33,893 nucleotides of DNA, from IMG/VR virus record IMGVR_UViG_3300017527_000444, positions 1-33,893 of that record; one strand, written 5' to 3'. This DNA comes from a virus. Both the position numbers and the translations under genes were made by a program. Of this stretch, positions 4,635 through 23,800 are shown piece after piece (the first letter of the stretch is position 1; each line of letters opens with the position of its first letter). The notes beneath the pieces were generated by a model. It ran no database searches and was not told where the DNA came from. It saw only the letters and a program-made list of their open reading frames with translations.

Positions 4635-5142
4635 GCTACTCCTTGTTTTCTTTGTCGCTTGTGGCACAGGCGACTCGGAGAAGCATGTCTCCGTGGTTAG
4701 CCGTTCCATACACAACGATTTAATCGAGGATGCTGTAAACTACTGCAATGAAATCTTTGCTTCTAATGGTGCAACGGTGACTTGTTATTTGGCAGAAAAA
4801 TGCGATGAGCATTGCGTTCAAATAGTCGATGGTAAAATATATCACAAGGGAAACCTAGTTGCTGGTTATGCAGACAATGGGGATGCGGTCGTGTCCACCT
4901 GGTGGCTTTCTAATTACCCCTACATCTCGCAACATGAATCATTAGGTGAAACAATTGCCCACGAAATGGGGCATATCTTCTACCTTAAGCATTGGGAATG
5001 CCCTTCAAGTAAAACAATTTGGGAATGCTGCATTGATGAGGATTATTATCGGAATCTAATGTGGAGAAGGCAACAGTGTGGATACCCTCACCGACCAAGA
5101 ACTGATTTAAACTTCCGACAATTATCAATTCTAGGGGGATGA
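4603..5142 (+). CDS. metzincin-like zinc metalloprotease lipoprotein
   Basis: A 179-residue predicted lipoprotein. A hydrophobic signal with FVAC places the lipidated Cys at residue 20. A zinc-protease signature follows: HEMGHIFYLKH (His120, Glu121, His124, His130), the HExxHxxxxxH spacing of metzincins but with Tyr where they normally have Gly. NLM at 151-153 could be the Met-turn, about 23 residues after the third His, as in matrixin-like enzymes. Eight or more Cys in the mature part (48, 61, 67, 71, 133, 142, 143 and later) suggest disulphides and thus an extracytoplasmic location. It ends the rightward operon. No clear ribosome site precedes ATG 4603. A host-envelope or virion-surface protease is plausible; the substrate is unknown. 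Confidence 0.75.
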   Translation: MKYLSKILPLKLLLVFFVACGTGDSEKHVSVVSRSIHNDLIEDAVNYCNEIFASNGATVTCYLAEKCDEHCVQIVDGKIYHKGNLVAGYADNGDAVVSTWWLSNYPYISQHESLGETIAHEMGHIFYLKHWECPSSKTIWECCIDEDYYRNLMWRRQQCGYPHRPRTDLNFRQLSILGG

Positions 5143-5911: not shown

Positions 5912-6051
5912 GATGTGTCTCCTTGAAGAAAAAGCGTGATTAAATAAATGCAGAGGGGCAGGGTTGCGCCCAAGGTCAAGCCGAGGAGGAGTCCTTGAAG
6001 AAATCTCCAGGCTTCAATAAACTCCCCTATTTTTACAGGAAAATAAGACAT
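5908..6051 (-). CDS. 47-residue membrane protein
   Basis: MSYFPVKIGEFIEAW is followed by one long hydrophobic segment (about residues 18-43, with LLLGLTLGATLPLCIYLITLF). The ATG overlaps the stop of the lipoprotein gene upstream (TGATG), and the stop overlaps the micro-ORF start (ATGA), so it lies in a fully coupled chain. The small size and single helix (or a helical hairpin broken at the Pro) fit a holin, antiholin or similar lysis accessory. No family is recognised. Confidence 0.6.
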   Translation of the reverse strand: MSYFPVKIGEFIEAWRFLQGLLLGLTLGATLPLCIYLITLFLQGDTS

Positions 6052-6548
6052 CAATCTACTCTAGCCCAAGGCGTGGAAACTTGCCAAGCGCAATCTTGGG
6101 AACCATCGTTGCATACCAAAAGAGCAGGCGCAGCATAAGCACTGCCAGGTCTACTTGCTCGCCAGTGTTGTCTTTGTCCATTATGAACCCCCGCCCACGT
6201 TAAAGGATCAGCAACATAACCATCAAAGACCGTACAATACTCAAACTTCTTATGATAAGATTCTGGCAACAAGACTACTAAATTATAATTAGACTCGCTC
6301 TCCGGCTTCCACAAAAAACCATTAGCCCCATCAGGTGGAAAGTTAGTGCCTGAACAAGTGGGATTCGTGGGGTCGGGTTCGATGGTTGTCGTCGTTGTTT
6401 TTGTAGAATCGTTTAGGTCAACAATATCGATTGTATCCTCGATGACTGTTTCTGTATCCTCTAGTATTTCCTTTACTTCACCACAACCCCAGACCACCAA
6501 AGCAACGACCAATGTTATGACAATTTGTGCAAATTTAATATTTATCAT
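6051..6548 (-). CDS. lipoprotein with Thr-rich linker and C-terminal beta-rich domain
   Basis: A 165-residue predicted lipoprotein: hydrophobic signal ending VVWGC with lipidated Cys22, an acidic helical stretch (about 24-48), a Thr/Pro linker (KTTTTTIEPDPTNPT), then a Cys-containing domain of about 100 residues starting GFLWKPESES and containing VVLLPESY, NGQRQHWR and RPGSAYAAP. The latter resembles a small beta-sandwich found, from memory, in uncharacterised bacterial and phage surface proteins. Far larger than a usual outer-membrane spanin. ATGA overlap with the upstream coiled-coil/TM gene and TGATG overlap with the next. Outer-membrane display in the lysogen or a lysis role are both possible. 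Confidence 0.65.
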   Translation of the reverse strand: MINIKFAQIVITLVVALVVWGCGEVKEILEDTETVIEDTIDIVDLNDSTKTTTTTIEPDPTNPTCSGTNFPPDGANGFLWKPESESNYNLVVLLPESYHKKFEYCTVFDGYVADPLTWAGVHNGQRQHWRASRPGSAYAAPALLVCNDGSQDCAWQVSTPWARVD

Positions 6549-6739
6549 TTTAAAAACAGGTAAATTTCCCGTCCCACAATAAGACCAATTATTAAAACAG
6601 CAAACTCTAAAAACCTGATCCTCTTCGATAGACTTTTAATGTCGTCTTTGTTTTCCTTGACCTGATAGCTCCTAAGCGCCTGTAGTTCGCCCATTTCAAG
6701 ATCGATGTTGATGCCTCCTTCCTTAAGATTCGCTTTCAT
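6545..6739 (-). CDS. XhlA-like coiled-coil membrane protein (putative holin)
   Basis: A 64-residue protein. I chose ATG 6739 (MKANLKEG) because GCGAGGA sits 4-7 bases upstream. A longer in-frame start would lie further inside the PAS gene without such a site. Residues about 20-42 form a charged heptad helix (KENKDDIKSLSKRIRFLE), followed by one C-terminal transmembrane segment (FAVLIIGLIVGREIYLFL). This order matches the haemolysin XhlA-type holin family, which cooperates with phage endolysins. It overlaps the PAS gene by 17 bases and the next lipoprotein gene by ATGA. Best holin candidate in the window, though the family match is by topology. Confidence 0.6.
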   Translation of the reverse strand: MKANLKEGGINIDLEMGELQALRSYQVKENKDDIKSLSKRIRFLEFAVLIIGLIVGREIYLFLK

Positions 6740-7322
6740 TTTTCCTCGCTTTCTGAATCCACATACATCGTTCTTCGGCAGGTGCAAAACATTTAGGTCT
6801 TACGTCTCTCCCCACATAATAATGCACGTTGTGCCAATCTTTCAGAATCGGGAAAATAGAGACAAAGGTAACTATCTCTTGTCCTGATTTTTTTATGAAA
6901 ATCTTTTCCCACGTAGGGATAGACTCATTAGGTTTTAGACTTTTTAATTTGTCTCTTACTTCTTCGTGGAAACAGTGAGCCTCCACAAACTCTTGGTTGT
7001 GTTTAGTTAAGTCGGCAACCGTTTTCCCTATCAATTCCTCCTTGGAATAGCCAAGTAATTCGCAAAATTTTCCATTAACTTCTTTTATTTCGCTAAAGGG
7101 TCCAGTGATTATTTGCGCGATGTGGCTACAATGGAAAGCACGGAAAACCCTGAGTTTGGAATGCCTAAGTTCGGCCTCTTTTTGTTTTAGTTTATTCTCT
7201 AAATATTCAATGCGTCGCTTCCTCTCTTTGTCCGACTCGGGAAGCCTTACCCCTCTCGCTTGCAAAAATAGAGAAGTGTGCTCTAAGCACTCCTCGAATT
7301 TTAAAGCTATTGAGATAGTCAT
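6723..7322 (-). CDS. PAS-domain protein
   Basis: A 199-residue soluble protein with a recognisable PAS fold. N-terminal helices (1-25) and a charged coiled coil (about 30-58, ERKRRIEYLENKLKQKEAEL) lead into the PAS core at about 65-175: a strand (SHIAQIITG), then IKEVNGKFCELLGYSKEELIGKTVADL at 79-105 in pieces typical of PAS (VN..F..LLGYS.EELIGK), a middle helix, and closing strands (EKIFIKKSGQEIVTFVSIFP, then VHYYVGRDV). The C-terminus is basic with two Cys. PAS domains sense ligands, redox state or light and pass signals through coiled coils. No kinase, cyclase or DNA-binding domain is attached, so its output must be protein-protein. It lies between a fibre-side gene and the holin-like gene. 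Confidence 0.85.
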   Translation of the reverse strand: MTISIALKFEECLEHTSLFLQARGVRLPESDKERKRRIEYLENKLKQKEAELRHSKLRVFRAFHCSHIAQIITGPFSEIKEVNGKFCELLGYSKEELIGKTVADLTKHNQEFVEAHCFHEEVRDKLKSLKPNESIPTWEKIFIKKSGQEIVTFVSIFPILKDWHNVHYYVGRDVRPKCFAPAEERCMWIQKARKNESES

Positions 7323-7596: not shown

Positions 7597-7646
7597 TAGG
7601 TTTCTCCAGAATGCTGTTCAGTTATTAAAGTTATTAAATTTTTCAT
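7596..7646 (-). CDS. 16-residue micro-ORF, likely translational coupler
   Basis: MKNLITLITEQHSGET. ATG at 7646 overlaps the fibre gene's stop (ATGA), with GGAG about 10 bases upstream. TAA shares a base with the next gene's ATG (TAATG), and that gene's GGAG ribosome site lies inside this micro-ORF. Same architecture as the 11-residue ORF at 5876-5911. Confidence 0.4.
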   Translation of the reverse strand: MKNLITLITEQHSGET

Positions 7647-9046
7647 GATGCTTTGACTCCTGAGAGAATAAACCAAGAAGAGCCGCTTGATACTATTTGA
7701 TAAAAATTTGTGTCGGCTCCATTGTCGTCAAGGTAGACCGTAAATCCTGCCCCTACGGTAGCAGGAGTTCCAAAGATAGCAGTAAGTTCTGCTTGAGTTG
7801 GAGGGTTAGAAACATTGCTTGTGTCTACGACGTGCTTTGTTGGCACGCTAAATTTGGCTTCTACTCCATCAATCCTGATTCTTTCTTGTTGGCCTGTTTT
7901 CAATACGAGGTCACTTCCGGTTCGAGTATCTATATTGAAATCACCGTCTAGGTAATTCAACCTCCCCCATCTTTTGGCACCCTCACCAGTATTCCATCCA
8001 TACACATACAGAGATGGCGTTTCGCCAGATGCTACATTTTGAAAATATGAACAATTATCTATTCCTTGGTCTTGTAGTGCTAGAGTTGTCCCTGGGGCTG
8101 CGGATATATAAGTGGCAGTATTTCCAGTCACCCAATTTGATACGTTTCCAGCCCTGTTAAATAATTGCATTCTGGCATTTGCATTATTACCCCTGATTCT
8201 AAATGCTGGGATTACCCCAGAAGTGACACCATCAAATTGCATCACATTCCCCGACGCTGTTACGTTTAACGCTCCTCCTGCGGTAGTTTGAAAATCTGTA
8301 TAATTAATTAAGTCGGTATGCGTCAATCTTAGTTGAGGGTCTATCGCGTCTATTATTTCTAATCGTCTATCTGCTGCTATTGATTTATTTATAGAAACAT
8401 AGCCAGTAGGACCGTCTACCCTCAAAGGTTTTGATGGTAAGAGAGATACTGTTCCTGCTCGTATATCTGCTGCTGTTTCTGACGCAATAGCAAAATACCC
8501 CGAATTGTCAAATATGTAATTTACACCGGATTGACCTGCAAGTAGCATCCCTACCCTACCATCAGTTCTATCAAGAGTTATCCCAGATCCTGTTCCTGTG
8601 TTTTTAAAATAACCGACTCCTTGGCTTACCCCATTCCCAATTATTTCTAGCGGATGCCTAGGCGAGTCCGTTCCAATACCCAATCTCTTATTTGTATCAT
8701 CCCAGAACAACTCGTCCTCTTCAGTATAAGTCCAAGTATTGCCCCCTGCATTCCAAAAAAGCATTTGCCCTTGAGCTGTTCCAGCGACAATGTTTCCACC
8801 GCCTGTTTCATCTTGCCAGCTGATGTCCGTCCCATCAGATTTCAATATTTGGTTTGCTGTCCCTCTTCCTAGTCGAGTAGTAGCATTGGCGGAATCGCGA
8901 TAAATGATATCTCCACGAGTTGTCATAGGGTCAGAGAAGCCTCCGCCGTTAGTCGCGCAAGCAGTTATGATAATGTAAGTAGGTTCAGGAATCCGAACGA
9001 CTAAAGGGCTACTGTCAACGACTATTATATATTCGCACTCACTCAT
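7643..9046 (-). CDS. tail fibre protein
   Basis: A 467-residue fibre. After a short N-terminal domain (MSECEYIIVVDSS) it carries a motif seen widely in phage fibres: DPMTTRGDIIYRD, NATTRLGRGTANQ and LKSDGTDISW (about 40-75). Next comes NKRLGIGTDSPRHPLEI, a repeat that recurs in fibre and spike shafts, then a long beta-rich Asn/Thr/Ser/Gly region and a C-terminal tip domain (VYLDDNGADTNFYQIV). Likely a trimeric receptor-binding or shaft protein. No S74-type self-cleaving chaperone is visible. No signal peptide, unlike several neighbours. It overlaps the BppU-like gene upstream by 4 bases. Confidence 0.85.
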   Translation of the reverse strand: MSECEYIIVVDSSPLVVRIPEPTYIIITACATNGGGFSDPMTTRGDIIYRDSANATTRLGRGTANQILKSDGTDISWQDETGGGNIVAGTAQGQMLFWNAGGNTWTYTEEDELFWDDTNKRLGIGTDSPRHPLEIIGNGVSQGVGYFKNTGTGSGITLDRTDGRVGMLLAGQSGVNYIFDNSGYFAIASETAADIRAGTVSLLPSKPLRVDGPTGYVSINKSIAADRRLEIIDAIDPQLRLTHTDLINYTDFQTTAGGALNVTASGNVMQFDGVTSGVIPAFRIRGNNANARMQLFNRAGNVSNWVTGNTATYISAAPGTTLALQDQGIDNCSYFQNVASGETPSLYVYGWNTGEGAKRWGRLNYLDGDFNIDTRTGSDLVLKTGQQERIRIDGVEAKFSVPTKHVVDTSNVSNPPTQAELTAIFGTPATVGAGFTVYLDDNGADTNFYQIVSSGSSWFILSGVKAS

Positions 9047-9393
9047 TTGACTGTAACTGTGTCTTTGAAATTAACTACTCCCCCTATTGGAGTGCTATCA
9101 AATCCCGCAAGGTCTGTTCTAAGTATGTCCCAAAATCCTTGCCTTCTTTCGATAGCCCCTGTTTGTGTATCAGTTAAAGACATTGAGATTTGTCCGTTTA
9201 CAGCATTTACAATAGTTACAGTGAAGGTTGCTATCAAAGTCGAACTTCTTGATTGGGATTCCCTGATTTCGGCTTTAAAAGTATTGTCTGTTATGTCTAT
9301 GGGATTTAAGCCAGCCGCATCCGTTGCAAATTGGAGATTTTGTAGAAAATCATTTCCTTTTAAAATATCTAAATCGTAAACCCCTGTGTTCAT
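9043..9393 (-). CDS. BppU-N-like baseplate/fibre adaptor protein
   Basis: A 116-residue beta-sandwich protein resembling the N-terminal domain of the baseplate upper protein family: YDLDILKGNDFLQNLQF, IDITDNTFKAEIR, IATFTVTIVNAVNGQISMSL, then GFWDILRTD and a final strand. In other phages this domain attaches receptor-binding proteins to the tail tip. Here it stands alone directly before the fibre gene it overlaps by 4 bases, which suggests it docks that fibre. GAAGG lies 7 bases before the ATG. A 57-base gap without any clear ORF separates it from the upstream gene. Confidence 0.75.
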   Translation of the reverse strand: MNTGVYDLDILKGNDFLQNLQFATDAAGLNPIDITDNTFKAEIRESQSRSSTLIATFTVTIVNAVNGQISMSLTDTQTGAIERRQGFWDILRTDLAGFDSTPIGGVVNFKDTVTVK

Positions 9394-9450: not shown

Positions 9451-10038
9451 TTATGTAGCGTCTTGACAAATTTCAGAATTATAAAAAGTTGAATAATGAG
9501 CAGTTGCCTCTTCTGTCCTTACTCCGTAATACATCTGCAATTGAGATGTAGGAACGTTAGTGCTGATAGTCCCTTGCGTCGCTCCATCTACAAACCACTG
9601 AACTTCGGTATCGCTATTGAATGCAATGGAGAAAGTATGCAAGCTAGTATCTGCCACTGGCCCTGTATCGTCGCTTCCCCCTCCCCCGTAAGACTGTGTA
9701 AGTCTTAATTGGTTGCCCCCATTATCGTATATTTCAAGAGCATTTCTTGGAGCAGCACTAACACCTATCATTGCACCAGTGCCACTTTCTGTGATTATTA
9801 AATTTCCATTACTATCCGTCTGAAAATCAACTTGCTCAGTAAGCCCATCATTATACAAACTAAAAGTTTTAGTTAAATCATCCCAATGACCTTCAGGAAT
9901 GTGGCCGTGCGTGCTTGCGAGACTCTGCGCATGAAGAGAATTACAAATAAAGAATAAGATAATAGTAAGCTTGTAACTTTTTCCACTTAAGAAGCATCTT
10001 AACAAAGCTAATATAGGTCTTATCATTACAAGCCACAT
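9451..10038 (-). CDS. secreted concanavalin-like domain protein paralogous to the spike C-terminus
   Basis: A 195-residue protein with a long basic N-region, then a signal-peptide core (LTIILFFICNSLHAQ) with cleavage expected after AQ near residue 38. The mature start contains STHGH. Its last 55 residues align with the end of the 1778-residue spike: SDTEVQWFVDGATQG / SDTELEWFIDDVSQG, then TNVPT and GVRTE / AVRTE in the same spacing. A GGGGS-like loop precedes it. The domain is probably a concanavalin/LamG-type sandwich used in carbohydrate binding. ATG 10038 follows only a weak AAGAGA; a second Met at residue 5 is the alternative start. Confidence 0.7.
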   Translation of the reverse strand: MWLVMIRPILALLRCFLSGKSYKLTIILFFICNSLHAQSLASTHGHIPEGHWDDLTKTFSLYNDGLTEQVDFQTDSNGNLIITESGTGAMIGVSAAPRNALEIYDNGGNQLRLTQSYGGGGSDDTGPVADTSLHTFSIAFNSDTEVQWFVDGATQGTISTNVPTSQLQMYYGVRTEEATAHYSTFYNSEICQDAT

Positions 10039-10049
10039 GTTATCTCTTG

Positions 10050-10316
10050 TTATGCAGGGTCGTAGTTCTTACAATTACAAATAGGGCAAACTAGAGCCTT
10101 GGCTGGTTCACCCGTATGAGCGCCTATAGTAGCATCCAGGTTTGTCTTATCCTCTACACTTAAATCATTTGCATAGAGTGCAATTAGAACATCTCCCTCT
10201 ACTTTTATGCCTTGAAAATCCACAGGAAGTGATATTGCTATAGATTTATGTAATTCTCCAGGATCTATACTACCCAAAGAAGTATCCTCTGATACTGAAT
10301 ATTTATATTCTGCCAT
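10050..10316 (-). CDS. small fibre-locus protein with C-terminal CPxC
   Basis: An 88-residue protein. ATG 10316 was chosen because GGAGGG lies 8 bases upstream, and the ATG overlaps the stop of the upstream gene (TAATG); a TTG 15 bases earlier is in frame but has no site. Mostly beta/acidic (EDTSLGSIDPGELHKSI), with a helix near DKTNLDATIG and a C-terminal VCPICNCKNY. The three Cys could hold a metal or make disulphides. No family is recognised. It lies between two signal-peptide-bearing genes but has no signal itself. Confidence 0.65.
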   Translation of the reverse strand: MAEYKYSVSEDTSLGSIDPGELHKSIAISLPVDFQGIKVEGDVLIALYANDLSVEDKTNLDATIGAHTGEPAKALVCPICNCKNYDPA

Positions 10317-10915
10317 TATGGAACCCTCCAAAATTCTATACGGGCTTCCTTTATGTATGTAGTGTTCCCGTTGTTGTTAGCATAGTCTATGTCTATTGTA
10401 TGCGCAGCATTAGTCAAAACAACTTCTACGAAACCACTCTGATGATAGTAGACACCATTAGCATACTTCTTCTTTTGTCCAGTTGTTGTAGAATATATAG
10501 TAGTAGTGTCATCAACCTGAGCACGAAACTCAGAACTCTCGTTCTCATTATCAGAAGTATAATTAAAACTAATACCTATTCTATAATTACCCGCTGGAAC
10601 AATTGAAGTAGTCAATCGTAATTTTTGTTGAAATGTCGCACTAGTTGTAGAAGATTCACCAGCAGAATAAGCACTATCATATTCAGAACCAAATACAGTC
10701 GCGATAGTTATAGCGTCATCAACATATTTTTTATTAGGGATAATATCGTCACTGACTACTAGGCCCTCGTAGTCAGTGACTCCAGAAACATCTATTGCTC
10801 CATCTAGTTCAATCTTAACTCCATCGGAATGCCCGTGTGTCGTTACCGCTTGTTGAGCATACACGAATGTTGTTACTGAAAAAAAAAGAGAGAATGCGAC
10901 AATCGTTCTTTTCAT
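10316..10915 (-). CDS. secreted fibre-tip-like jelly-roll protein
   Basis: A 199-residue protein starting at ATG 10915, which has AGGAG 7 bases upstream. Signal peptide: MKR, then IVAFSLFFSVTTFVYAQ, with cleavage after residue 21. The mature protein begins QAVTTHGHSDG and contains NKKYVDDAI, the collar-helix motif common in phage fibres. The rest is a beta-rich domain (AGNYRIGISFNY, SGFVEVVL, HTIDIDYANN, ARIEFWRVP) resembling, from memory, a receptor-binding tip domain of phage fibres. A classical fibre tip behind a Sec signal is unexpected. Confidence 0.75.
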   Translation of the reverse strand: MKRTIVAFSLFFSVTTFVYAQQAVTTHGHSDGVKIELDGAIDVSGVTDYEGLVVSDDIIPNKKYVDDAITIATVFGSEYDSAYSAGESSTTSATFQQKLRLTTSIVPAGNYRIGISFNYTSDNENESSEFRAQVDDTTTIYSTTTGQKKKYANGVYYHQSGFVEVVLTNAAHTIDIDYANNNGNTTYIKEARIEFWRVP

Positions 10916-10917
10916 TA

Positions 10918-13900
10918 TTAACTCCTGTCTTGCCAAACTTTATCGTAATCAACATCCAAACTCTTCGCTGATGTGGTTTCTGTCCTCACCGCTATCCACG
11001 GTTGCAGATAGGCAGTTGGCACATTTGTGGTCACTGACCCCTGCGACACATCATCAATAAACCATTCCAACTCTGTGTCAGATGTAAAAACCCAAGAAAG
11101 TTTAGTAATGCTAGTTGTTGCATTTGCTCCAGCATCGGTAGTGCAAGTGCCTGCCGTACATGCTTCTAAGTTCCAAGCTGCCCCAGCGCTAGCATCAAAA
11201 TAAAAACGAATATAATCATCGTCACTTGCCCCACTTACTTCGATGAATCCGAGGTCTACTTCTATGTCAGCGATTGAAGGAAGCTGGACTCTGAAGCTTT
11301 GATTTGGTTGAGCAGTATTAACAAACTGGGCGACATCGTTCCAATCAATCGACTCCTCATCTGTCGAAGTTGCCCCAGTTGTCAAACGAAACCATCCATT
11401 AGATCGACCGCTAATCGGGGATCTACTTCCTGTTGTCGTTCTAGTAGCCCATTGAGACCCAAGGACTCCCCACATCTCATCTGCAAAAAGAACTCGAGTT
11501 GGGTTGAACTCAAGAGCAGAAACCCTACCCTCGTTGTCAACACTGAATTTACTAGTCCCGTTTACCTCCGCGTCGATTAGATATTGTGCGCCTGAGCCTA
11601 CTGCTGTTTCGGTGCGGTTGATTAGGAGGTCGGTGTTTGAGGCTGTGCCACTAGCTTGGTTATAGTTGGGGGTAATCGCCACTGAATTGCTTTGCCCAGA
11701 GGTATTGGCCTTATTCCAATTGCTGTTAAGTAAAAGACCATTACCCGCACTTCCACTACTGAAATTTCCATCTATAGACATCGAAGTTGAAGACGTATTA
11801 TCTAATATCTGATTCAGGTATGTTATCCCTGTGTTTGTAACCCTGAATTGGGTTCCTCCCCCCACCTGCGCATCAATTAAATTACTAACCCCAGGGCTTG
11901 CGGTATCAGTCATGTCAATCTGTAGCCCAGTGTCATTACCAGCAACTTTGTTAGTTGTGTAATTTAATTGAAGAGCTACTTCGTCACCAGCGGCGGCATT
12001 CAATGTAGTAGTCTGATTGATATCTACCGGGATTAAGTAAGGCAAAACAAAAGAATCATCTCTAAAAGATGCATCGCTTATAGTGAAACCATCAGCTATA
12101 TTGTCTCTAAAGTAAGCATTCTCAGCTAAGTCAAAATAATAAGTCTGCCTTCCTTCGTCATAAGAAAAAAGGTTGTTCGTAACGACCTGCGTTCCTGTTA
12201 AATTCTGGGAAGAATAAACAGCATATGGCTCTGCTGTTGCGCTTTCGCTCAATCGAACAAAGTTATTTGTAATAGTTGCATTATTTAGAGTATCGATAAA
12301 AATACCAATTCGTAAATCATCGCTCAAACCAGCATTCGTTGTGGTCACTACATCATCCAACTTGTTGCCCATGACAATTACATTATTCAAGTCAGCGTCA
12401 ATGCTCGCATTGAATACCGAATTATCTACGCCTAACCCTGTTTGAGTTGTTGATTGTATAGAGTTACTTAAGATCGAGCCAGCAAATGCCTCTGCGTAAA
12501 CTCCTCTCCCCGCGATATCATATACAGTATTGCCAACTATCGTCCCGTTAAAAACTCCTCCCTCGGTCCTGATGCCATCTCCTGCATTTACTCCACTAAC
12601 ATTATTGTCACTAATTACTAGATTAATAAAAGCGTAAGAAGTCCCAGCTAGGGCAGAGGCTAGAATCCCGTGACTGCCTGAGTTTCTAACAATATTACCG
12701 TCAACTATACCGTAATTATGCGCTGGTGATAATGCAGTTAATTGTAATTTAATTCCTTGAAGCACCGTTGTATCGACTGTATTTCCAGACATAGTAATTG
12801 AATCATTGTTGTCTGAATAAACTCCATGTTGGCCAACGGTGTTAATAATCGTATTTCCTGTCAGAAGGATGCTTTCATTTTCTCCTCCTAAAAAAACAGA
12901 AGTACCTGCGTCTGATATATCGTTATTAGAAATTGTTAATTTCTTAGTCGAGATGGTTGATGATAGTAAGTTAATCCCAAAGTTGTAGTTTTCGCCTGGG
13001 CTAATTACCCCTGAGCCTGGGCCTACGATTCTGTTATTTACAATCAGTGTATTATTGTTGTTATAAAGCTCAATTCCAGCATTACCAAAGTTTGAAATAT
13101 GGTTATTCCTTAATTCGGTATTCACTGAGGATAAAACATAGATTCCATCAGCCGCCGTTTGACCGAGTGGGTCAAAATCAGTGCCGAGTCCAACTAGAGT
13201 TAAGCCTTCAATTTTAATATTGTCGCATCCATTGACTAAGAAAGTTCTGGTGAGAGGTGCAGTTTGTGTGAAAATAGCTCCATACCCAAAAATATTAAGA
13301 TCATCTATGCCCGCAATAGTAAACCCTGTGGTTAGAGTGTAAGCACCTGATGCTATTGTTACATTTTGATTTCCTGAAAGGGACGCGAGGGTTTTCGTAA
13401 TTGCGGTTTCGTCAGCTCCCCACCACCCAGAAAAGACATCCGTAAAAGCGTAGGTAGTCGCTCCGAGTCCACTAAAAACAATGTCGTCCCCAGCCTCAAA
13501 ATCTCCATTGATTGTTAATGTTCTAGTTGCGGCGATACTGAAAGAACCACCTTTAACTACTTTTAATGTTATGTTGCTTGGGATAGTAACATTATTGGAT
13601 AAGGCACAAGCAACCGGTACGACTAGAGTTGTTTCGGTTGCCCCAATGCTAGAAATAGCAGAGTTCAAGAGAGCGTCAGTGCAAGGTGTCCCATATTTCT
13701 CTATCGTAATTTGGCCATGTAAGTTTGCGATAGCATAACCACTGTTATCGACACTGAATTTGCTTGATCCTCCCACTTGCGCGTCGATCAAATATTGAGC
13801 GCCTGAACCGACTGCGGTTTCGGTGCGGTTGATTAGGAGGTCGGTTGCTGCGGCTGTCCCTGTTTGATTATAAGTTGGAGCAATAGAGACGCCATTGAAC

Positions 13901-16254
13901 TGTCCGCTACTGTTTGTCACATCAGTTCCGACTAAACATTCAATCCCATTATCTGCTACAGTGAAATCACGCAACTGCAACCCAAGACTTACGTCATTTG
14001 CGGTTGTAAATATCAGGGGCGTTTGTAAAGATGCGCTCAAGAATCCCCCTCCTGTATTACGGACATAAAATTTAGGACTAGAAGCCACATTCGCTTTGAC
14101 CAAATAGCTCAAATCAGGACTGGCCGTATCGGTTTGGGTGATATGCAGACCAATATCATCTCCACTGGCTTTGTTTGTTGTATAGTTTATGGAAAATGCG
14201 GATTCCTCCCCGGTCGCTTCATTGAGTACATTTGTAGTTGAGCTTATAGCATCTACCCATTCGGTGCCATTATATACCCATCCAGTAGATTCACCGATGT
14301 TGGGTTCCGAATTGAGCACCATTTGCCCGATTGAAGGTGTGGTGTCTGTGGGGAGCTCGGTAGAGATTGCATAACTATCTAAATTCTTATTCCCGCTGGA
14401 GTCGATGATTGTTTTAATCCTGCTATTGCTCGGTGTATATATTCGTAACTCTTGTAGTGATAAGCTAGCATTCCCTCCAGTCACCCCAAGCCATACAGTT
14501 TCCATGTCTGGATGGAAAGAGACGTCGAATGTAACACGCCCATCATCTCCCCCTGGGTTCATGATGTCTCCCGCCCAAGCATATCTTTCCCCAGCTGCTA
14601 AATACTGAAATCCTTCGGGAACATAATCAGAGCCAGTTATCCTGGCCCCCAGATTGTCGAACGCGATAAAGACAATACCACCCCCTGTCGCGTCTATAGT
14701 TGCTTGAATAAATGCTTTTCTCATGAAATCTCGAGGCTCTTGGCTTAAATCTAATTTGATACCGAGCATCGTATACCCCAATAAGGGCATCTCTAAATAT
14801 GTAGATTGTAAGTCTATTCCAGCAAGGTTAGTGACCTGGTTAATCACATCAGTCTCCATAGCATACCAGGCATAACCAGGGGGGGCCCATACTCCGCTCG
14901 CGCTTTTGGTTAGTTGCTCTCTAGATATATGACTGACAAGGAAATGATCTCCTGATGTTTCAGTCATGTAGGGCGACTCAAATTTATTCTGGCTAAGAAT
15001 AGTCTTGCTCCCCGCATGGGTAGCAAGTACCAACTGGGTAGAGTCGTTCGCATTATGCAGCGTGTAGATATAAATAGAATTATTATTGAACCTTCCATCC
15101 CCCCCTAACATCCCCTTATTTATTGACGCACTTTCCCACCTCATGCCAAAGAAAAAGTTTCCACTAACAGACTTTGCCCCCGTGCTATATATAGCGACTG
15201 CGCCAGCGGCGTTGCTATTGTGGATTTGCAAAGAAGGGTTATAAAATACATTTTGATTCTGCTCGTAAGTCCCCGAACAGTTGAAAGTAATGCCCGAAAC
15301 AGTCGCTGCTAAATTCGTGGATAAGGCTGTAACAAAATCTCCGCCATAAAAAGTATTTTGATTTACAAAGCCCACACCAGAGGAGTCCAATATTAGCCCC
15401 TGAGCATTTCCCCTTACTGTGCCTAGCTCGATCTCGTTATATGCCGTCCCTGTGGCTACTTGGCTGACAAGATTAATCCCATAATAGAAATTATGAGCTG
15501 ACAATCTTCCTCTGAAATTTGTTATATCTTGTAATTTTAATCCTGAATAGACATCTGTATAGTCTATAGCGCTTCGCCTAACGTCTATAATAGAATTGAA
15601 CGTTTTTTTATAGTCTGTCCCTGTGATATTGCTCCCCCAAACAAAAGCATCTTCGCCGCTGCCAGTGAAGAGTAATATAGACTCACAGATAAAAGGAGTC
15701 GCATTCACATTAGTCAGCTGAGAAGCAAAATTATAAGTTCCAGCCCCGCCCGCGCAAAATGTCCTCTCACTAGTTGAGTCAATTGCTGCTTGAATTGCTG
15801 CGGCATTGTTCGTTGACCCATCGGCGAGAGCGCCAAACCAATCGATATAAGACTCTCTTAATCCCGAGACCGCCCCCGTTCCAGTAAGACTAAAAACTTG
15901 GTCTACCCCAGCTTTGAAATCTCCATTGATCGCAAGAGTAAAAGTATTACCAATAGAAAATTCCCCACTTTTATCTACCGCTATTGTGATATTATTGGGA
16001 ACAGTAACGTCGGCCCCAAGTGTGCAAGTTTGATTCACTAGGATAGTTTCTTCACTTGCCCCAATCGTTGCGATAAGCGCATTCAGAGTGACATCGGTAC
16101 AAGGACTAGTCGGGCAATTTACATCCGTTAAATCGCAAGTGGGAAAAGGGATTGGTCCCCCACCGCCCCCACTACCAGGCGAATAAAGATAATCTTGAGC
16201 TAGAGCCGTCGAACAACAAACAAAAAAAAGGATAAGAGCAAAAATGTGTTTCAT
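10918..16254 (-). CDS. giant tandem-duplicated beta-helix spike with signal peptide
   Basis: A 1778-residue protein. ATG 16254 (MKHIFALILFF) gives a signal peptide ending ALAQ at residue 20 and follows GGAG at 11 bases. A 57-residue longer start would lie within the upstream gene and bury the signal. Layout: Gly/Pro linker (about 25-40), module A1 (52-132), a pectate-lyase-like beta-helix (IDWFGA, AAAIQAAIDS at about 137-160), B1, C1, module A2 (about 853-930), a PbH1-type beta-helix (about 990-1340), B2, C2, and a concanavalin-like C-terminal domain (about 1585-1778). Parallel beta-helices in phage tails bind or cleave surface glycans; no catalytic residues can be assigned. At more than twice the usual spike length, it is explained by duplication. 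Confidence 0.85.
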   Translation of the reverse strand: MKHIFALILFFVCCSTALAQDYLYSPGSGGGGGPIPFPTCDLTDVNCPTSPCTDVTLNALIATIGASEETILVNQTCTLGADVTVPNNITIAVDKSGEFSIGNTFTLAINGDFKAGVDQVFSLTGTGAVSGLRESYIDWFGALADGSTNNAAAIQAAIDSTSERTFCAGGAGTYNFASQLTNVNATPFICESILLFTGSGEDAFVWGSNITGTDYKKTFNSIIDVRRSAIDYTDVYSGLKLQDITNFRGRLSAHNFYYGINLVSQVATGTAYNEIELGTVRGNAQGLILDSSGVGFVNQNTFYGGDFVTALSTNLAATVSGITFNCSGTYEQNQNVFYNPSLQIHNSNAAGAVAIYSTGAKSVSGNFFFGMRWESASINKGMLGGDGRFNNNSIYIYTLHNANDSTQLVLATHAGSKTILSQNKFESPYMTETSGDHFLVSHISREQLTKSASGVWAPPGYAWYAMETDVINQVTNLAGIDLQSTYLEMPLLGYTMLGIKLDLSQEPRDFMRKAFIQATIDATGGGIVFIAFDNLGARITGSDYVPEGFQYLAAGERYAWAGDIMNPGGDDGRVTFDVSFHPDMETVWLGVTGGNASLSLQELRIYTPSNSRIKTIIDSSGNKNLDSYAISTELPTDTTPSIGQMVLNSEPNIGESTGWVYNGTEWVDAISSTTNVLNEATGEESAFSINYTTNKASGDDIGLHITQTDTASPDLSYLVKANVASSPKFYVRNTGGGFLSASLQTPLIFTTANDVSLGLQLRDFTVADNGIECLVGTDVTNSSGQFNGVSIAPTYNQTGTAAATDLLINRTETAVGSGAQYLIDAQVGGSSKFSVDNSGYAIANLHGQITIEKYGTPCTDALLNSAISSIGATETTLVVPVACALSNNVTIPSNITLKVVKGGSFSIAATRTLTINGDFEAGDDIVFSGLGATTYAFTDVFSGWWGADETAITKTLASLSGNQNVTIASGAYTLTTGFTIAGIDDLNIFGYGAIFTQTAPLTRTFLVNGCDNIKIEGLTLVGLGTDFDPLGQTAADGIYVLSSVNTELRNNHISNFGNAGIELYNNNNTLIVNNRIVGPGSGVISPGENYNFGINLLSSTISTKKLTISNNDISDAGTSVFLGGENESILLTGNTIINTVGQHGVYSDNNDSITMSGNTVDTTVLQGIKLQLTALSPAHNYGIVDGNIVRNSGSHGILASALAGTSYAFINLVISDNNVSGVNAGDGIRTEGGVFNGTIVGNTVYDIAGRGVYAEAFAGSILSNSIQSTTQTGLGVDNSVFNASIDADLNNVIVMGNKLDDVVTTTNAGLSDDLRIGIFIDTLNNATITNNFVRLSESATAEPYAVYSSQNLTGTQVVTNNLFSYDEGRQTYYFDLAENAYFRDNIADGFTISDASFRDDSFVLPYLIPVDINQTTTLNAAAGDEVALQLNYTTNKVAGNDTGLQIDMTDTASPGVSNLIDAQVGGGTQFRVTNTGITYLNQILDNTSSTSMSIDGNFSSGSAGNGLLLNSNWNKANTSGQSNSVAITPNYNQASGTASNTDLLINRTETAVGSGAQYLIDAEVNGTSKFSVDNEGRVSALEFNPTRVLFADEMWGVLGSQWATRTTTGSRSPISGRSNGWFRLTTGATSTDEESIDWNDVAQFVNTAQPNQSFRVQLPSIADIEVDLGFIEVSGASDDDYIRFYFDASAGAAWNLEACTAGTCTTDAGANATTSITKLSWVFTSDTELEWFIDDVSQGSVTTNVPTAYLQPWIAVRTETTSAKSLDVDYDKVWQDRS
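11520..13700 (-). repeat. second unit of the spike's tandem duplication (A2-helix-B2-C2)
   Basis: Encodes residues about 853-1578. At DNA level the C modules keep a 29-base perfect direct repeat (11606-11634 and 13817-13845) inside a longer well-conserved stretch. The A and B modules are more diverged. The beta-helix part differs in sequence and length from unit one. Confidence 0.75.
13735..16101 (-). repeat. first unit of the spike's tandem duplication (A1-helix-B1-C1)
   Basis: Encodes residues about 52-840. Matching landmarks with the second unit: TIGASEETILV / SIGATETTLVV, NGDFKAG / NGDFEAG, NYTTNKASGDDIGLHI / NYTTNKVAGNDTGLQI, and an identical NRTETAVGSGAQYLIDA. Boundaries are approximate. 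Confidence 0.75.
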
Positions 16255-16258
16255 TCTC

Positions 16259-16639
16259 TTAAGGTCTCCTTGCGTAAGAAAAGCAAACTGAGCCAGTTGT
16301 AGCCGCCGCCCCTGATACGTATTTTCCATAAATGAAATATTCAGTTTCCCGACCGCCTTGATGCCAGATAGTCTGTGCTCTATGAACACCCGCAAAATAC
16401 ATATCTTCAACCGTCTTAACTGCATCAGTCATAGAAGAAATTTCTAAATTAGCATCAAGGTCGTTTTGGATGTAAATCTGTGTAGAATTAGAAACTGTTA
16501 CCGTGGTTAAAAGTACCCAGGTAGTGTCATTGAGATCCCCAAAGGCTTTACAAGAGAGAGGGCCATAGGGGATTGAACTAAATCCCGCAAAGCTAAAAAA
16601 AATGAACAGAATACAAAAAAGGCTTGTTAGTTTTCTCAT
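16259..16639 (-). CDS. small secreted protein, unknown function
   Basis: A 126-residue protein with a clear Sec signal: MRK, hydrophobic core LTSLFCILFIFFSFAG, likely cleaved near residue 22. The mature part of about 100 residues is beta-rich (LLTTVTVSNSTQIYIQND, ETEYFIYGKYV) with two Cys (CKAF and SVCFSYARRP) that could pair outside the cytoplasm. GAGG lies 6 bases before ATG 16639. It precedes the giant spike by 4 bases, so the two are probably translated together and might interact. No family is recognised. Confidence 0.7.
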   Translation of the reverse strand: MRKLTSLFCILFIFFSFAGFSSIPYGPLSCKAFGDLNDTTWVLLTTVTVSNSTQIYIQNDLDANLEISSMTDAVKTVEDMYFAGVHRAQTIWHQGGRETEYFIYGKYVSGAAATTGSVCFSYARRP

Positions 16640-16640
16640 T

Positions 16641-17198
16641 TTATTCCTCGTCTTTTAAGACCTGCTTATAGGCTCCATTGATCATCCAGCGTCTAACCAT
16701 CTCGGGATATTCTTGATTTCCTCCGCCATTGTAGCGCAAAAGTACTTTATCAAAAAGGGCTTTCTTATCTGTAACACCTTCGCTCTTAAATTTGTTAATT
16801 ATTTTTGCCACAAACCCACAACCCACTCTGAGATTATGGGTAGGTAGAAGTAAGCTACTTAGAAATACTTTATCAAACCCATTCTCCCTCGCCGTCTCTC
16901 CCATGATCTGCATCAAGCCCCAAGAAGTCGCTCTTGCCATTAACTCAGAAGAAAAGGTCGGAATTCTTCGAGGCATCATTCCAGGTAGTTGATCGGGAGA
17001 TTTTCCCTTTAAATATCGGTCAAAGAAACCTTGCTCATAACGAAATGCCCAAACATTTCCCCTAGATTCCTGATAGATTAAAGCGGAAATCATTTTGGGG
17101 TCTAAATGCAAGGCCGCGCACTGCCTCCGAATTTCAAAAGAAATATAATAACCATCTGTGATTAAACATTGGCTTGAGAAGTCAGGATTGCTGTTCAT
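16641..17198 (-). CDS. lytic transglycosylase (SLT-type), probable endolysin
   Basis: A 185-residue peptidoglycan-cleaving enzyme of the Slt/goose-lysozyme-like family. Catalytic Glu44 in IYQESRGN, the SWGLMQIMG motif at 92-100, and the RYNGGG motif at 155-160 are all present in the usual order. It cuts the MurNAc-GlcNAc bond, forming 1,6-anhydroMurNAc. No signal peptide or membrane segment, so as an endolysin it would need the holin. It could instead be a virion-associated enzyme, since it sits inside the fibre locus well away from the holin-like genes. GGGGA precedes ATG 17198; overlaps the upstream gene by 17 bases. Confidence 0.88.
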   Translation of the reverse strand: MNSNPDFSSQCLITDGYYISFEIRRQCAALHLDPKMISALIYQESRGNVWAFRYEQGFFDRYLKGKSPDQLPGMMPRRIPTFSSELMARATSWGLMQIMGETARENGFDKVFLSSLLLPTHNLRVGCGFVAKIINKFKSEGVTDKKALFDKVLLRYNGGGNQEYPEMVRRWMINGAYKQVLKDEE

Positions 17199-17590: not shown

Positions 17591-19015
17591 TTAGCCAGCA
17601 TACACGAACATAAATACATCGTTCGCATTGCCCTCCCTATCAAAATTGACATTAAAAGCCGACTTCCCGAGAGTTGTCGCCCTTACTATGTCATCACTTT
17701 GAGCTTTTAAACGACCAGGTTTATTTTCAGAGACACACAAAAGCGTTCCCGCACTTATCGCCCCTCCCTCGTCACAAACCTTCACCCCTGGGAAATCGCC
17801 TGATTCGGTATCCCCTAGAGCAATTATTTTTAATTCAACCCTATCCTGAAATCCCGTCTTTGTTACGATCTCAGTTCCCCCTTGTTCGTTTATGACTTCT
17901 TCTTCGACCTCAATTGGTTCAGGCGTGATTTGTTCTCCAGCATAAACACCGAAAACTGCGGGGTCATTATGATGTGCCCTCACTATCGTTTTATTATCTC
18001 CTGAATATTTCACGGGATCTCCAATTTTTACATCTTGAGCGCGATTATCCGCATTATGAATCCCTGAAAAAGAAGCATAGTTTGAGCAGGTGATTCCGTT
18101 AATTTTATAGGAGCTTGAGCCGAGGTTGATGCCATTATTCGTTAGAGTTCCTGCATTGTTAATCGGAAGCCAGAATGCGGAAGAGGCCAGTTGGAAACCC
18201 GCGTAACCTACCACATTACTGTAGATTTTGATTGCGCCACTACCTACTACGCCATATTGTAAATAGATATTTCCGATTCTCGAATTGGAACTATCAACCC
18301 CAAGGTTCTTGTAGGTTGAGGGATGCAAGGCTGCCCCAAAAGCTGAGGTATTGATTTTCCAGGCGACTGCCCCATTTTGATAAAGATTGAGTGTTGCATC
18401 AGACGACGGCCCGATGATCATACTACTGCTCCTTGTGAAGCTGCTACAATTCGTCATAGCTGTTATGTCGTTGTTGCTGCCTAGCATTGCTGCCCCTAAG
18501 TTCGTTCGTGCGTTAGAAGCACTCGAGGCTCCTGTTCCTCCATTTGCTATTGTTAGATCAGCACCCGACCAATTATCATTATTTATATTACTAAGTTGGG
18601 CTAAACTTCCTAAACCTAAATTCCCTCTAGCCGTTGCCGCATTTGCAACATCACTCAAGTTATTTGCAATTGCCAAAGCCCCAGCTTGGGAAGCAGTTAC
18701 GACGTGAGGATTTGAAACATTGTTAACATGAGCAGCATACGTAGCCAAGTCAGGAGCACCGACTTGAGCAGCAGTTACCGCATGAGGATTTCCAGTTACA
18801 TCGTTGATATGATTTGTGTAATCAGGTAAAGCATCTACCCAGGAAGCACCAGACTTTCTTTCAAACCTATTCGAGTTCCATCTTACTGCCCCATCAGGAA
18901 CATTGAAATCTGCCGAGAAGTCCATCTTTGCAATAGACTCATCTCTCTCTCTAAGCTCAGGAAGAACTTCCGTATTATAATTACTATCATTATCGGGTTT
19001 ATCCCAATCAACCAT
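17591..19015 (-). CDS. tail fibre protein with phage-fibre repeats
   Basis: A 474-residue fibre. After an N-terminal attachment region it has two tandem repeats at about 69-87 and 95-113 (NPHAVTAAQVGA / NPHVVTASQAGA), a common shaft repeat. Then come LSDVANAATARGNLGLG and ANGGTGASSASNARTNLGA, the Phage_fibre_2-type repeat. The C-terminal 150 residues form a distinct domain (DPVKYSGDNKTIVRAHH, VFGVYAG, then GISAGTLLCVSE-like strands) ending VFMFVYAG, probably a trimer tip or self-processing chaperone-like domain. No signal peptide. AGGAG lies 10 bases before the ATG. Confidence 0.85.
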   Translation of the reverse strand: MVDWDKPDNDSNYNTEVLPELRERDESIAKMDFSADFNVPDGAVRWNSNRFERKSGASWVDALPDYTNHINDVTGNPHAVTAAQVGAPDLATYAAHVNNVSNPHVVTASQAGALAIANNLSDVANAATARGNLGLGSLAQLSNINNDNWSGADLTIANGGTGASSASNARTNLGAAMLGSNNDITAMTNCSSFTRSSSMIIGPSSDATLNLYQNGAVAWKINTSAFGAALHPSTYKNLGVDSSNSRIGNIYLQYGVVGSGAIKIYSNVVGYAGFQLASSAFWLPINNAGTLTNNGINLGSSSYKINGITCSNYASFSGIHNADNRAQDVKIGDPVKYSGDNKTIVRAHHNDPAVFGVYAGEQITPEPIEVEEEVINEQGGTEIVTKTGFQDRVELKIIALGDTESGDFPGVKVCDEGGAISAGTLLCVSENKPGRLKAQSDDIVRATTLGKSAFNVNFDREGNANDVFMFVYAG

Positions 19016-19027
19016 CTTCTTATTCTC

Positions 19028-20014
19028 CTATATGGGCCTCTTGATTTTAACCTGGTCAGCACCGCAATCCCAGGCCGAACCCCTAGACTCCAGGTCGATG
19101 TCGTCATTAAAAAAATTTGATAAACCTACGCCTTGACTCCTTGCTACTGTATCGTTAGGATTAAGATGTAAATCATCATTTACCTCATCCACAAACGAAG
19201 GCACCCTCCCTTGGTGACTAGCTCCATCAGGACTTGATCTATCCGAAGTTACGTTGGCCGCAGTATTCACGGTAAAATCTGCTCCATCGTCGTAATAATC
19301 CTTATCGCCACTGTTGATTATGACGTTATTTTTAATGTTAGCAATAGCAATTTCTTCGCCACGCTTAGCAAGCTTGATGCCGTATCTATCAGCGTCTTTA
19401 ATCGTATTGTTAAAACAATTTATTGGAGAACTATCAGAAACGACTCTTTGGATTTCAATATTATCATTAAACCCCATGACTATAGAGTTTCGAATATAAA
19501 CCGCATGACCTCCTCCCATTGAGAGAGTATCTTGAATCCCTATACCCCCAGAGCCCACCGAACGGCGAACAATGCAAGCATTGATTACAATATCCCCCTC
19601 GTCCAAGTCCCCACTGATAACAATTCCACGAGCATCTTTATTAGTCCAGTATAGGTCACAATCAATCTGGATGCCCTCAATTAAAATATTACAAATTAAA
19701 ATCTCTAAAACAGTATCATCGAGACAGCTTAATCGGTAACAAGAATCGTCCCATTTGCCAGGATGTCTACCGCTAGACTTAATAGGATCTCCGAGGATTG
19801 ATATTGAATTTACATCCCATCCCCCCAAATCTACTCCTTGCGTGTCCTTGGTCGCACCGGAGCAATAGACATAGTGATCATGAATTGAGGTTTCACATTC
19901 GCCTGCATCCCATTCAGCTAAAGAACCATAAGCCCTGTCTTGACCCTCTGTCCCTCTAGTCTTGCCACTCCCGCCAGCAGGACTCTCTGTATTAACGTAC
20001 CTAATAATATCCAT
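19028..20014 (-). CDS. right-handed beta-helix protein, probable tail spike
   Basis: A 328-residue protein starting at ATG 20014 (MDIIRYVNTES), coupled to the previous stop by TAATG. Layout of a secreted-type parallel beta-helix: an N-terminal SPAGGSGKTRGTE segment, then rungs rich in Ile/Val/Asn (ILICNILIEGIQIDCD, GIVISGDLDEGDIVINAC, AVYIRNSIVMGFNDNIEI, AIANIKNNVIINSGDKD), and a closing NPNDTVARSQGVG followed by DCGADQ, typical of right-handed beta-helix proteins. Likely glycan binding or degradation at the tail tip. No signal peptide. It lies between a hypothetical gene and the fibre gene, 12 bases from the latter. Confidence 0.8.
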   Translation of the reverse strand: MDIIRYVNTESPAGGSGKTRGTEGQDRAYGSLAEWDAGECETSIHDHYVYCSGATKDTQGVDLGGWDVNSISILGDPIKSSGRHPGKWDDSCYRLSCLDDTVLEILICNILIEGIQIDCDLYWTNKDARGIVISGDLDEGDIVINACIVRRSVGSGGIGIQDTLSMGGGHAVYIRNSIVMGFNDNIEIQRVVSDSSPINCFNNTIKDADRYGIKLAKRGEEIAIANIKNNVIINSGDKDYYDDGADFTVNTAANVTSDRSSPDGASHQGRVPSFVDEVNDDLHLNPNDTVARSQGVGLSNFFNDDIDLESRGSAWDCGADQVKIKRPI

Positions 20015-20382
20015 TACAATTTCTTTATGTGATGTTCGATATCGTCGTAAGCAATATAAGCCTTTCTCCACTTAGTAAGCTTCTGTTTAATCTTTCCATC
20101 TAAATCTTCAACCGCAATTCTGTATTCCCTTTTTTTTATTGGCTTGCCATTGTCCTTCTTCGTTTTGACCATTTTGTTTAGGTCTTTTGCTTCAAAGTTA
20201 GTCACGCAAAGAAAGCCCACCTTACTACTAGAAGAAATATCCCACTTGTCAGGACTAGAATCATAATCCTTGTAAGCAAGGATATATCCATTTTTCCAAG
20301 CAAGCTCATTCTTCTTATCAACATAATTGAAAGAAGAAACAAGACATACGATTAAATCAACATCTACATATTCAGCAGCCAT
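20014..20382 (-). CDS. hypothetical protein of the fibre locus
   Basis: A 122-residue soluble protein: a hydrophobic beta-start (VDVDLIVCLVSSFNY), several Tyr/Asp-rich segments, and a basic C-terminal half (KKREYRIAV, KQKLTKWRKAY). Its ATG overlaps the stop of the previous gene by one base and its stop overlaps the next ATG, so it is firmly in the operon. No family is recognised, and no signal peptide or membrane segment is visible. Confidence 0.65.
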   Translation of the reverse strand: MAAEYVDVDLIVCLVSSFNYVDKKNELAWKNGYILAYKDYDSSPDKWDISSSSKVGFLCVTNFEAKDLNKMVKTKKDNGKPIKKREYRIAVEDLDGKIKQKLTKWRKAYIAYDDIEHHIKKL

Positions 20383-20891: not shown

Positions 20892-23800
20892 TTATGAAAC
20901 AATTATACCCGTTGCTTTCCAGGTAAATTCACCTGTGACTCTAACCCCTGATTCATCAAGTAGCTTAACATAAAACTTTTGGTCAGCAGGAGCAGAAGCA
21001 AGATCATATAATAAATTTGTATAACGCTGTGTCCCAAGTGGTGTAATGGCGTCTGTGACTATGGTTACAATGTCCACAAAAGACCTATTGAAGTCCACTT
21101 GATTTCCGTATGTCGCAATATCCGTGCTGTCAGGATTTGTTCCTGATATCGTTGCATTCCCACGTCCCTCGTCGTCTGTTTTCTGAACCTTAAGGACAAG
21201 ACGCATAGAGCAAAGTTTTGTAATTGAAGTATCGTCAGCAGGTGTTTCGCCCGTGTAGGTCAAACCCAAAGGCCCCATTGCTTCGCCATCTTCATGAACT
21301 ACTGTTCCAAAGACAATAATTAAACGGATATACCTAAAGTTAGAAGCCAAAACTTCAAGCTCATTCTCTGGAAAAATTACCCAATCAACTCCATTGTCAG
21401 AAGCCGCCAAAGTAATCGTTTTAGAAACACTTCCTGCTATTACGGTTTCCAAGTAACTAAAGCTCACAATAGTTGCAGGTAAAACAGCTCCGAAATCCAC
21501 TACTTGAATATACATCCCATAACCAGGCGTCGGCTGAGAATAGATCGGATATCCTGCATCTACTTGGTCTTGTATCGTCGACCAGCCATTATTTACGAAA
21601 TGTTCACTCCAGGTTTCAGTAATATTCTGAGGAGAAATAATACAATCGTTCTCTTCGTCTATTTCTACGTTGACAGTTAAAAGCGCATCCTCTGGATCGA
21701 GATATTGATCGTCTCTTAAAATAAAATTGTCTGGATCACTTACATTTGTTTGAACAGAATTTGGAGTCCCTTCATTCCCCGCAGAGTCAATAGCAACTAC
21801 CCAGTACCTATAAGTTCCCCCCGTAAGCTCAAAATAGGTAAAGAATGTCCCAGGATTATCCACAAGTTCTTCGGTAGTAGCATAGACGTCGCCCTTCTTG
21901 ATTTTATACTTTTCAATTGGAACTGTGTGTTGAGCTGGTATCTCCCAATTAAGAAAAACATTATTATTACTTACTGCTGAATTTAGATTAACCACGGCAC
22001 TCGGAGTTTGGATACTTACCGTCGTGCTCCCAGGTGTTCCAAGGTTTCCCGCCACATCCCTAGCCGCAACCCAAAAAAGACGATCGTCTCCCCACTCTAC
22101 CTTGTCAGTGAATTTCGTTCCCTTGATATTGGCCAAAGGAATAGAGCCTGCCCAAGTTGGCCCGTAAGAAATCTCATATTCATCAATAGCAAAAAGAGAG
22201 ACAATGTTTTCCCAATTAAGAAAAACGTCACCACCTACTATTTGAGAGGTGATGACAGGAGAAGGAGGCGCAGGAATAACCGCCGTTTGAGGTGTGGCGT
22301 TTGTGCTATAATTACCAGAGGTGTCAATTGCCTTAATCCAAAAATTATAGGTACCCGCAGTTTGGATTCCCCATGTATAAGTTGTGGCACTAATCTTTGA
22401 AGCAATCGCCGTTCCTGTTTCCCAAGTCGCCCCTTCTCTAATCTCGTATTCCTTTACATCAATGTCAGTAACCTCGCTCCATTGAAGAAGGATGCCGTAT
22501 TTATTAACTGTGGCATAAAGAACTGAAACATCAGAAGGAGGCGCACTTTTTCCAAGTACTAAATGATTTGCTACTGTCTCCCAGATTAGAGAACGAACAC
22601 CAATCGCATTAACTGTTCTTATTCTTACGTCGTAATAATCCCCATCTTGAACATCTAGAAGACGAGTCCAGGTTTGCGTTGCTGGAACAGGAGTTGCGTC
22701 TTGCCAATCTGGATCAGCCGAACGCTTGTATTGAATCTCTATCTTACCAAGTTGAGAAATTGGGTCTGTGGGGATATCCCATGTTGCACGAATCGCCGAA
22801 AAAATTGTCCCATCCAACCGCTTGTAAAGTTCAGCCGTTCCACTGAAGATCTGCAAGTTCGTAGGATTGACCACCACGTTCGGACTAGGTAAGTCCGTAT
22901 TTGGGGCAAGGTCAACTTGAGTTTCAGAACCACCAGCCCAATCAAAGACACCTTCTGCCGTTTCACGTAAAGTTAAAGCTACCCCCAAAGTCGGAGCACC
23001 ACCTGAATTGTTTAAGGCAAGTTGAGTATTAACAACCTCAAATTCCTTTTGGCTCCAACCATATCGGTCTAAAGTGAGTTGAACATTGTCTCCAACCCTT
23101 AATTGATACGCAGAAAGCTTGCACACAATAGAAACCTGAATCCCTTGTCGAATCTTTTCTAAAGCTATTTTCGAGATACGTTGAGCCGTAGCACCGAATA
23201 CAGTTAGAGGATAATCCTTCTCTCTCCATATCTGTCGTCCATCTTGGTCTTGATAAGTGGCGTTTGTTATTGCAGGGTAGTCCGTTTCCTCCCAATTCTG
23301 CTCAGGGCTTTTGTATGTCCCTTTTATCGCATTGAAACTATCCTTAATGTCTATCTGGGTTCTTACGTCAATGCCCGATATTATTTCCCTAAGTGTAATC
23401 TCTACAGTGGGGGTTCTCCAAGCTCCAGGCATTATGATCCATTGACCATTCGTGTAAGCTACAAACCCCGCAATACAGCCTGCCATCGTTCTTAAAACAT
23501 CTTGATAACTTTGATCTGAGTCAAAAACTCCGTTTATCGTATATCGCGATTCGTAAACCTCGACTTGTTGAGCATTGGGAGGCGAAGCAACCAGAGTTCT
23601 TGTAAGCTTGACATAAACTTGACCCGCCCCGTCTGTAATCGCACTTTTCTCTACTTGATAATACTCAGTACCAAACTTCAACCATTGACCACTTTGGAGA
23701 ACCCGAGTGTAGGGTTGCCAGTAATGCAGCTTAATAACACTGCCAGTTTGACCACTTCCCCAAACACGAGCGTACCCAGAATCAGAATATTTATCCGAAA

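Follow-up and report, generated by a model that had tools for sequence, protein, structure and literature searches.

Fibre- and spike-type genes with predicted Sec signals form a run beside the endolysin gene in a siphophage-like late operon

The T5 protein Llp is exported, acts on the host outer membrane and is encoded beside receptor-binding and tail genes (PMC9586334), and Lom of phage lambda is the product of a signal-bearing gene located between the tail tip and side-fibre genes (PMC12309495). In the MAT proteins of Bdellovibrio, all 21 members carry one β-rich domain of ~130 residues directly after the signal (PMC10769870). The window analyzed here (the whole stretch of 33,893 bases, a partial IMG/VR record) holds, on its minus strand, a siphophage-like late region with four open reading frames at 16259-16639, 10918-16254, 10316-10915 and 9451-10038 that the original prediction took to begin with Sec signals. 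Like Llp and the Cor protein of T1-like phages, these proteins are phage-encoded, have export signals and come from genes beside receptor-binding and tail genes, but Llp and Cor are small lipoproteins, whereas the window proteins range from 126 to 1778 residues, have no lipobox, occur several in a row and lie next to an endolysin gene. They also differ from Lom, an outer-membrane β-barrel, in that the giant protein of the window contains a parallel β-helix and the others match no barrel family. With MAT proteins they have in common a Sec signal and a fibre-like architecture with variable tips; MATs, however, are bacterial genes with a common ~130-residue domain, and the window four have no common domain after the signal. 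A pair of pelagiphage proteins (HTVC202P gp24 and gp25, 'putative carbohydrate binding') resembles them in being late-region products with signals, encoded close to genes for fibres and small membrane proteins in phages whose J protein is related, yet the pair is not similar in sequence to the window proteins, has acidic repeat regions and lies beside packaging genes in HTVC202P. Finally, tailspikes and β-helix depolymerases are akin to the giant protein in its β-helix and spike-type repeats, but tailspikes have a virion-attachment N-terminus where the giant protein has a signal peptide.

The minus-strand genes follow the order major tail protein, tape measure, distal tail protein (Dit), J-like tail tip protein (20892-24806, our query for finding relatives), an ordinary side fibre (17591-19015), a transglycosylase SLT endolysin (16641-17198), the signal-bearing run, an LtfC-like gene (9043-9393, phrog_1084) and, directly preceded by the latter, a second ordinary fibre (7643-9046), while the plus strand in the left part of the window carries a helicase and other early-type genes. 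As the run lies in an unbroken late operon with same-strand tail and fibre genes on both flanks, contamination by host DNA is unlikely. The endolysin (SLT, 6.4e-8), which has homologues in the relatives L255, L225 and L283, is directly upstream of the run: the ATG of 16259-16639 lies one base past its stop codon, and the gaps between the successive genes 16259-16639, 10918-16254 and 10316-10915 are 2-4 bases. A small gene without a signal (10050-10316, 88 residues from its ATG, minus strand) also lies inside the run. We found no tRNA in the window and, in this partial record, no integrase among the family matches. Elsewhere in the window, lipoprotein-like N-termini are present in 4603-5142 (which also has a HEMGH zinc-peptidase-like motif), 239-526 and 6051-6548, and the C-terminal module of the last (minus strand) is common to a signal-bearing protein of 452 residues beside the L255 endolysin (4.2e-8).

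We scored the N-termini with a rule-based, hand-made Sec/SPI predictor (positive n-region, hydrophobic core, small residues at -3/-1), which accepted 16259-16639, 10918-16254 and 10316-10915 from their natural starts, each a well-placed ATG with a reasonable ribosome-binding site. Cleavage is predicted after MRKLTSLFCILFIFFSFA (next residue G) in 16259-16639, where the signal spans about residues 1-18 (16586-16639), after MKHIFALILFFVCCSTALA (next residue Q) in 10918-16254, with its ATG at 16254 and signal at residues 1-19 (16198-16254), and after MKRTIVAFSLFFSVTTFVYA (next residue Q) in 10316-10915, with the signal at residues 1-20 (10856-10915). For 9451-10038, with a signal of ~37 residues (9928-10038), a core ending NSLHA and predicted cleavage after MWLVMIRPILALLRCFLSGKSYKLTIILFFICNSLHA (next residue Q), the rule was satisfied only when an internal in-frame start (MIRP, for example) was taken, and the long n-region and weak Shine-Dalgarno sequence make this signal less certain. 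When residues 2-41 were shuffled 5000 times, equally high scores arose 0 times for 10918-16254, 4 times for 16259-16639, 10 times for 10316-10915 and 79 times for 9451-10038; on the basis of this last count and the internal start, we grade the 9451-10038 signal as probable only. All four sites are of the A-X-A type with short classical h-regions, three of them with Gln at +1, and inspection of the four N-termini by eye revealed neither a lipobox nor a twin-arginine motif. Thus, as far as sequence can tell, three of the four signals are textbook cleavable Sec signals, as had been predicted. Also in line with the original prediction, the rule was negative for both ordinary fibres (7643-9046 and 17591-19015), as it was for the J-like protein, Dit and the endolysin. 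The Gln residues at +1 had led us to consider a Bacteroidota host on the basis of the Q-rule (PMC5837995), an idea against which the frequent Shine-Dalgarno sites in the window argue.

Applied to fibre-bearing viral contigs, this rule was positive for about 1% of the ORFs of at least 150 residues (10 of 947). Sorted by position in the relatives, the rate was 1/417 for genes upstream of or at J (0.2%) and 12/350 for genes downstream of it (3.4%), and at the latter rate four or more signals in five consecutive genes have P = 6.7e-6. The rule also flags the J-protein N-termini of some relatives, which differ from those of the run in their long Gly/Ala-rich hydrophobic stretches. Hydrophobicity by itself is therefore no proof of export, and the argument is based on the form of the cleavage sites together with the occurrence of the signals in a run.

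The proteins behind these signals are built from fibre and spike modules. The giant protein (10918-16254, minus strand, 1778 residues) is spike-like and continues after its signal with a Gly-rich linker, two copies of a spike-type segment, a parallel β-helix (Pfam Beta_helix, 9.2e-12; NosD; TIGR03804), fibre-type repeats and a C-terminal domain common to 9451-10038. A repeat alignment places equivalent Cys pairs in both spike-type segments, which is suggestive only as an argument for export, and the ordinary protein 19028-20071 has more Cys. The 199-residue product of 10316-10915 (minus strand) is a truncated fibre in which an IPNKKYVDD fibre segment and a β-rich end domain follow the signal; its ~50 post-signal residues align to the segment preceding the C-terminal part in over 100 viral fibre ORFs, which identifies it, by sequence, as the terminal part of a known type of phage fibre, preceded by a signal. 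The last ~70 residues of 9451-10038 (minus strand, 195 residues) share 41% identity with the C-terminal end of the giant protein. It carries just the second half of the shared domain, fused to fibre-type sequence, and looks like a recombinant or decaying copy. The small 126-residue protein of 16259-16639 (minus strand) has a mature part that is probably β-rich and, like the others besides the giant protein, matched no family. Of the folds initially assigned to these proteins, the β-helix is thus borne out, whereas jelly-roll and concanavalin-like folds found no confirmation, with no family match and predicted structures at pLDDT 44.5 (10316-10915) and 40.1 (the shared C-terminal domain).

The N-terminal segment of the ordinary fibre 17591-19015 has homologues directly after J in many relatives (best 8.6e-12) and marks the virion-attachment end, and the same comparison returned no homologues for the N-termini of 9451-10038, 10316-10915 and 10918-16254. 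With the attachment N-terminus absent and a signal present, we infer that export signals occupy the place of attachment domains. Outside the window, tblastn of 10316-10915 and 16259-16639 against annotated phages gave no homologue, viral-contig searches with 9451-10038, Dit and the giant protein gave no match, and the giant protein had none among plasmids and only weak partial matches among annotated phages. All-against-all phmmer comparison found no post-signal domain common to the four, so that at most one of them could carry the MAT domain; Pfam S74 had no match in the window proteins (the NS74 subfamily of MATs is without S74 too), and PDB searches with two of the four gave no match. The proposed tie to the Bdellovibrio MAT proteins is accordingly not supported.

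A search with the J C-terminus yielded at least 80 loci, and the original prediction's proposal to look for signal-plus-fibre genes in related phages proved productive, although the counts are lower bounds from the matches listed and some source contigs are incomplete. Among at least ~120 viral IPNKKYVDD fibre ORFs, one besides that of the window had a convincing signal among the matches listed: in G001 (IMGVR_UViG_3300014913_000026), a signal-bearing fibre of 1087 residues has a Gly-rich post-signal stretch, as the giant protein does, and is flanked on both sides by signal-bearing genes. The fibre locus of this phage also includes sulfotransferase and APS kinase genes (L126 1256-2816) upstream of its signal-bearing run. 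In L236/G289, a phage lysozyme and a holin-like gene are followed by a signal-bearing protein of 131 residues and then by a signal-bearing β-helix-like protein of 416 residues, matching the order of 16259-16639 and 10918-16254. In G288, which is probably a complete circular genome since its two ends share an overlap of 26 bases, an SLT endolysin with 43% identity to that of the window, a receiver-domain protein and small membrane-protein genes precede a row of three signal-bearing proteins (636, 398 and 496 residues). That the G288 and G289 proteins are β-helix-like is our own reading of weak family matches (choice-of-anchor Q, 0.016; PelN, 0.0015). The gene for the signal-bearing 452-residue protein of L255/G290 overlaps that of the homologous endolysin, and in G290 an LpxR outer-membrane lipid A deacylase (3.5e-58) adjoins a signal-bearing subtilase (2.9e-52; L302 11061-12002 and 12017-13501). 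Pelagiphage-type loci (L168, L178 and L179) and published phages, including Pelagibacter phages, have a conserved pair of signal-bearing proteins encoded close to genes for fibres and small membrane proteins; the pair is also seen in L215 and L216, and one of its members is annotated as carbohydrate binding.

The signal-bearing proteins of different phages are mostly non-homologous to each other. No signal-bearing fibre was found in four published tail loci, and L135, the closest J relative among the matches listed, has ordinary fibres without signal-bearing neighbours. Besides the window, three phage contigs have, next to lysis genes, two or three fibre or β-helix-like genes with signals in a row. 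As judged from these loci, signal-bearing runs of the fibre type are a recurrent but not a general trait. We found no description of signal-bearing fibre genes in literature whose coverage is sparse for subscription papers. Omnitrophota were considered as a source of the fibre motif and rejected, with the motif in 1 of 285 sampled genomes. As a separate observation, a PAS-domain or response-regulator receiver protein is encoded near lysis or holin-like genes in four phages (window 6723-7322, L236 12544-13122, L225 13813-14361 and L126 7767-8141; PAS_9 3e-10 and 1e-7, Response_reg 1e-17 and 1e-4), and sensory control of lysis through such proteins is possible.

The explanation that we favour, with moderate confidence, is that late fibre- and spike-type proteins are exported to the periplasm, act on the host envelope and are freed at lysis. 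The four genes would be expressed late together with the endolysin, and their products, phage fibre and spike modules whose virion-attachment end has been swapped for a signal peptide, would be delivered by the Sec machinery into the host periplasm and trimmed by signal peptidase. The mature proteins would accumulate there, act on the envelope and leave with the progeny at lysis. Their most likely action would be to bind or cut the host surface glycans recognized by the virion fibres, a target that we infer because the modules are those that phages use to recognize and cut glycans. Such action could weaken the envelope or capsule and prevent progeny virions from becoming caught on debris, and the benefits to the phage may include easier release, protection of progeny from debris and exclusion of competitors. 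Because the run lies in the lysis region and relatives export a subtilase and LpxR, an envelope-directed late function is to be favoured among the adhesins, decoys or glycan-modifying proteins originally envisaged, a list that is still fair. On the other side, no enzymatic motif was demonstrated in the four proteins, and action beyond the periplasm before lysis would be hard to account for in proteins of such size.

A different use of the same export, which we consider unlikely, would be receptor masking or superinfection exclusion, the exported fibre tips binding the host receptor and thereby blocking further phages and the loss of progeny to debris, as Llp of T5 does with FhuA. Llp is encoded beside the receptor-binding protein gene and acts from the periplasm (PMC9586334), Lom has a signal peptide and lies between J and the fibres (PMC12309495), and 10316-10915 is a fibre end without an attachment domain. 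However, the small lipoproteins Llp and Cor are poor models for proteins without a lipobox, one of them 1778 residues long, and the ends of the signal-bearing proteins have no significant similarity to those of the phage's own ordinary fibres. It is improbable that the four are virion parts, either with an uncleaved hydrophobic start or exported for folding and then joined to extracellular particles: a tail operon with fibre and spike modules would suit this, as would the hydrophobic N-termini of the relatives' J proteins, but the short h-regions, the A-X-A type sites and the Gln at +1 in three of four argue for cleavage, three of the proteins have no detectable attachment domain, and the other ~115 IPNKKYVDD fibre ORFs, G001 excepted among the matches listed, lack a convincing signal.

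We deem it very unlikely that these are surface adhesins conferred on the host by lysogenic conversion and resembling MAT proteins. Signals joined to fibre modules and the β-helix and tip architecture are what such adhesins would have, yet the common post-signal domain and S74 are absent, the genes sit with lysis genes at late-expression spacing, no integrase was seen in the window and the fibre motif is nearly absent from the sampled Omnitrophota genomes. Neither virion use nor a role as MAT-type adhesins is as likely as the late envelope-directed function. That the signals are chance hydrophobic N-termini or reflect misjudged start codons is hardly credible: the prediction is rule-based and the 9451-10038 start is awkward, but the shuffles, the background rates, the good start contexts of the other three genes and the recurrence in independent phages all speak against it.

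Phage-encoded exported proteins directed at the envelope are of a known kind, and the fibre-type modules are the new element, which suggests that some phages export fibre-like proteins into the host envelope in a way not described before. We tentatively extend this, as a possibility on the doubtful side, to diverse tailed phages, which would export fast-changing, virion-free fibre-type proteins through Sec at lysis as soluble counterparts of receptor-binding proteins that mask or strip host glycans. Among cultured phages, pelagiphages that encode a comparable pair of signal-bearing proteins are related to it in sequence. Annotations routinely assign fibre and spike proteins to the virion, and host range is guessed from them; if a recurring subset is exported, such annotations are wrong for that subset. 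If the favoured late export is true, these genes would mark a late step in which the host envelope is remodelled by loose fibre-like proteins, and they may be a phage-side source of bacterial secreted fibre adhesins.
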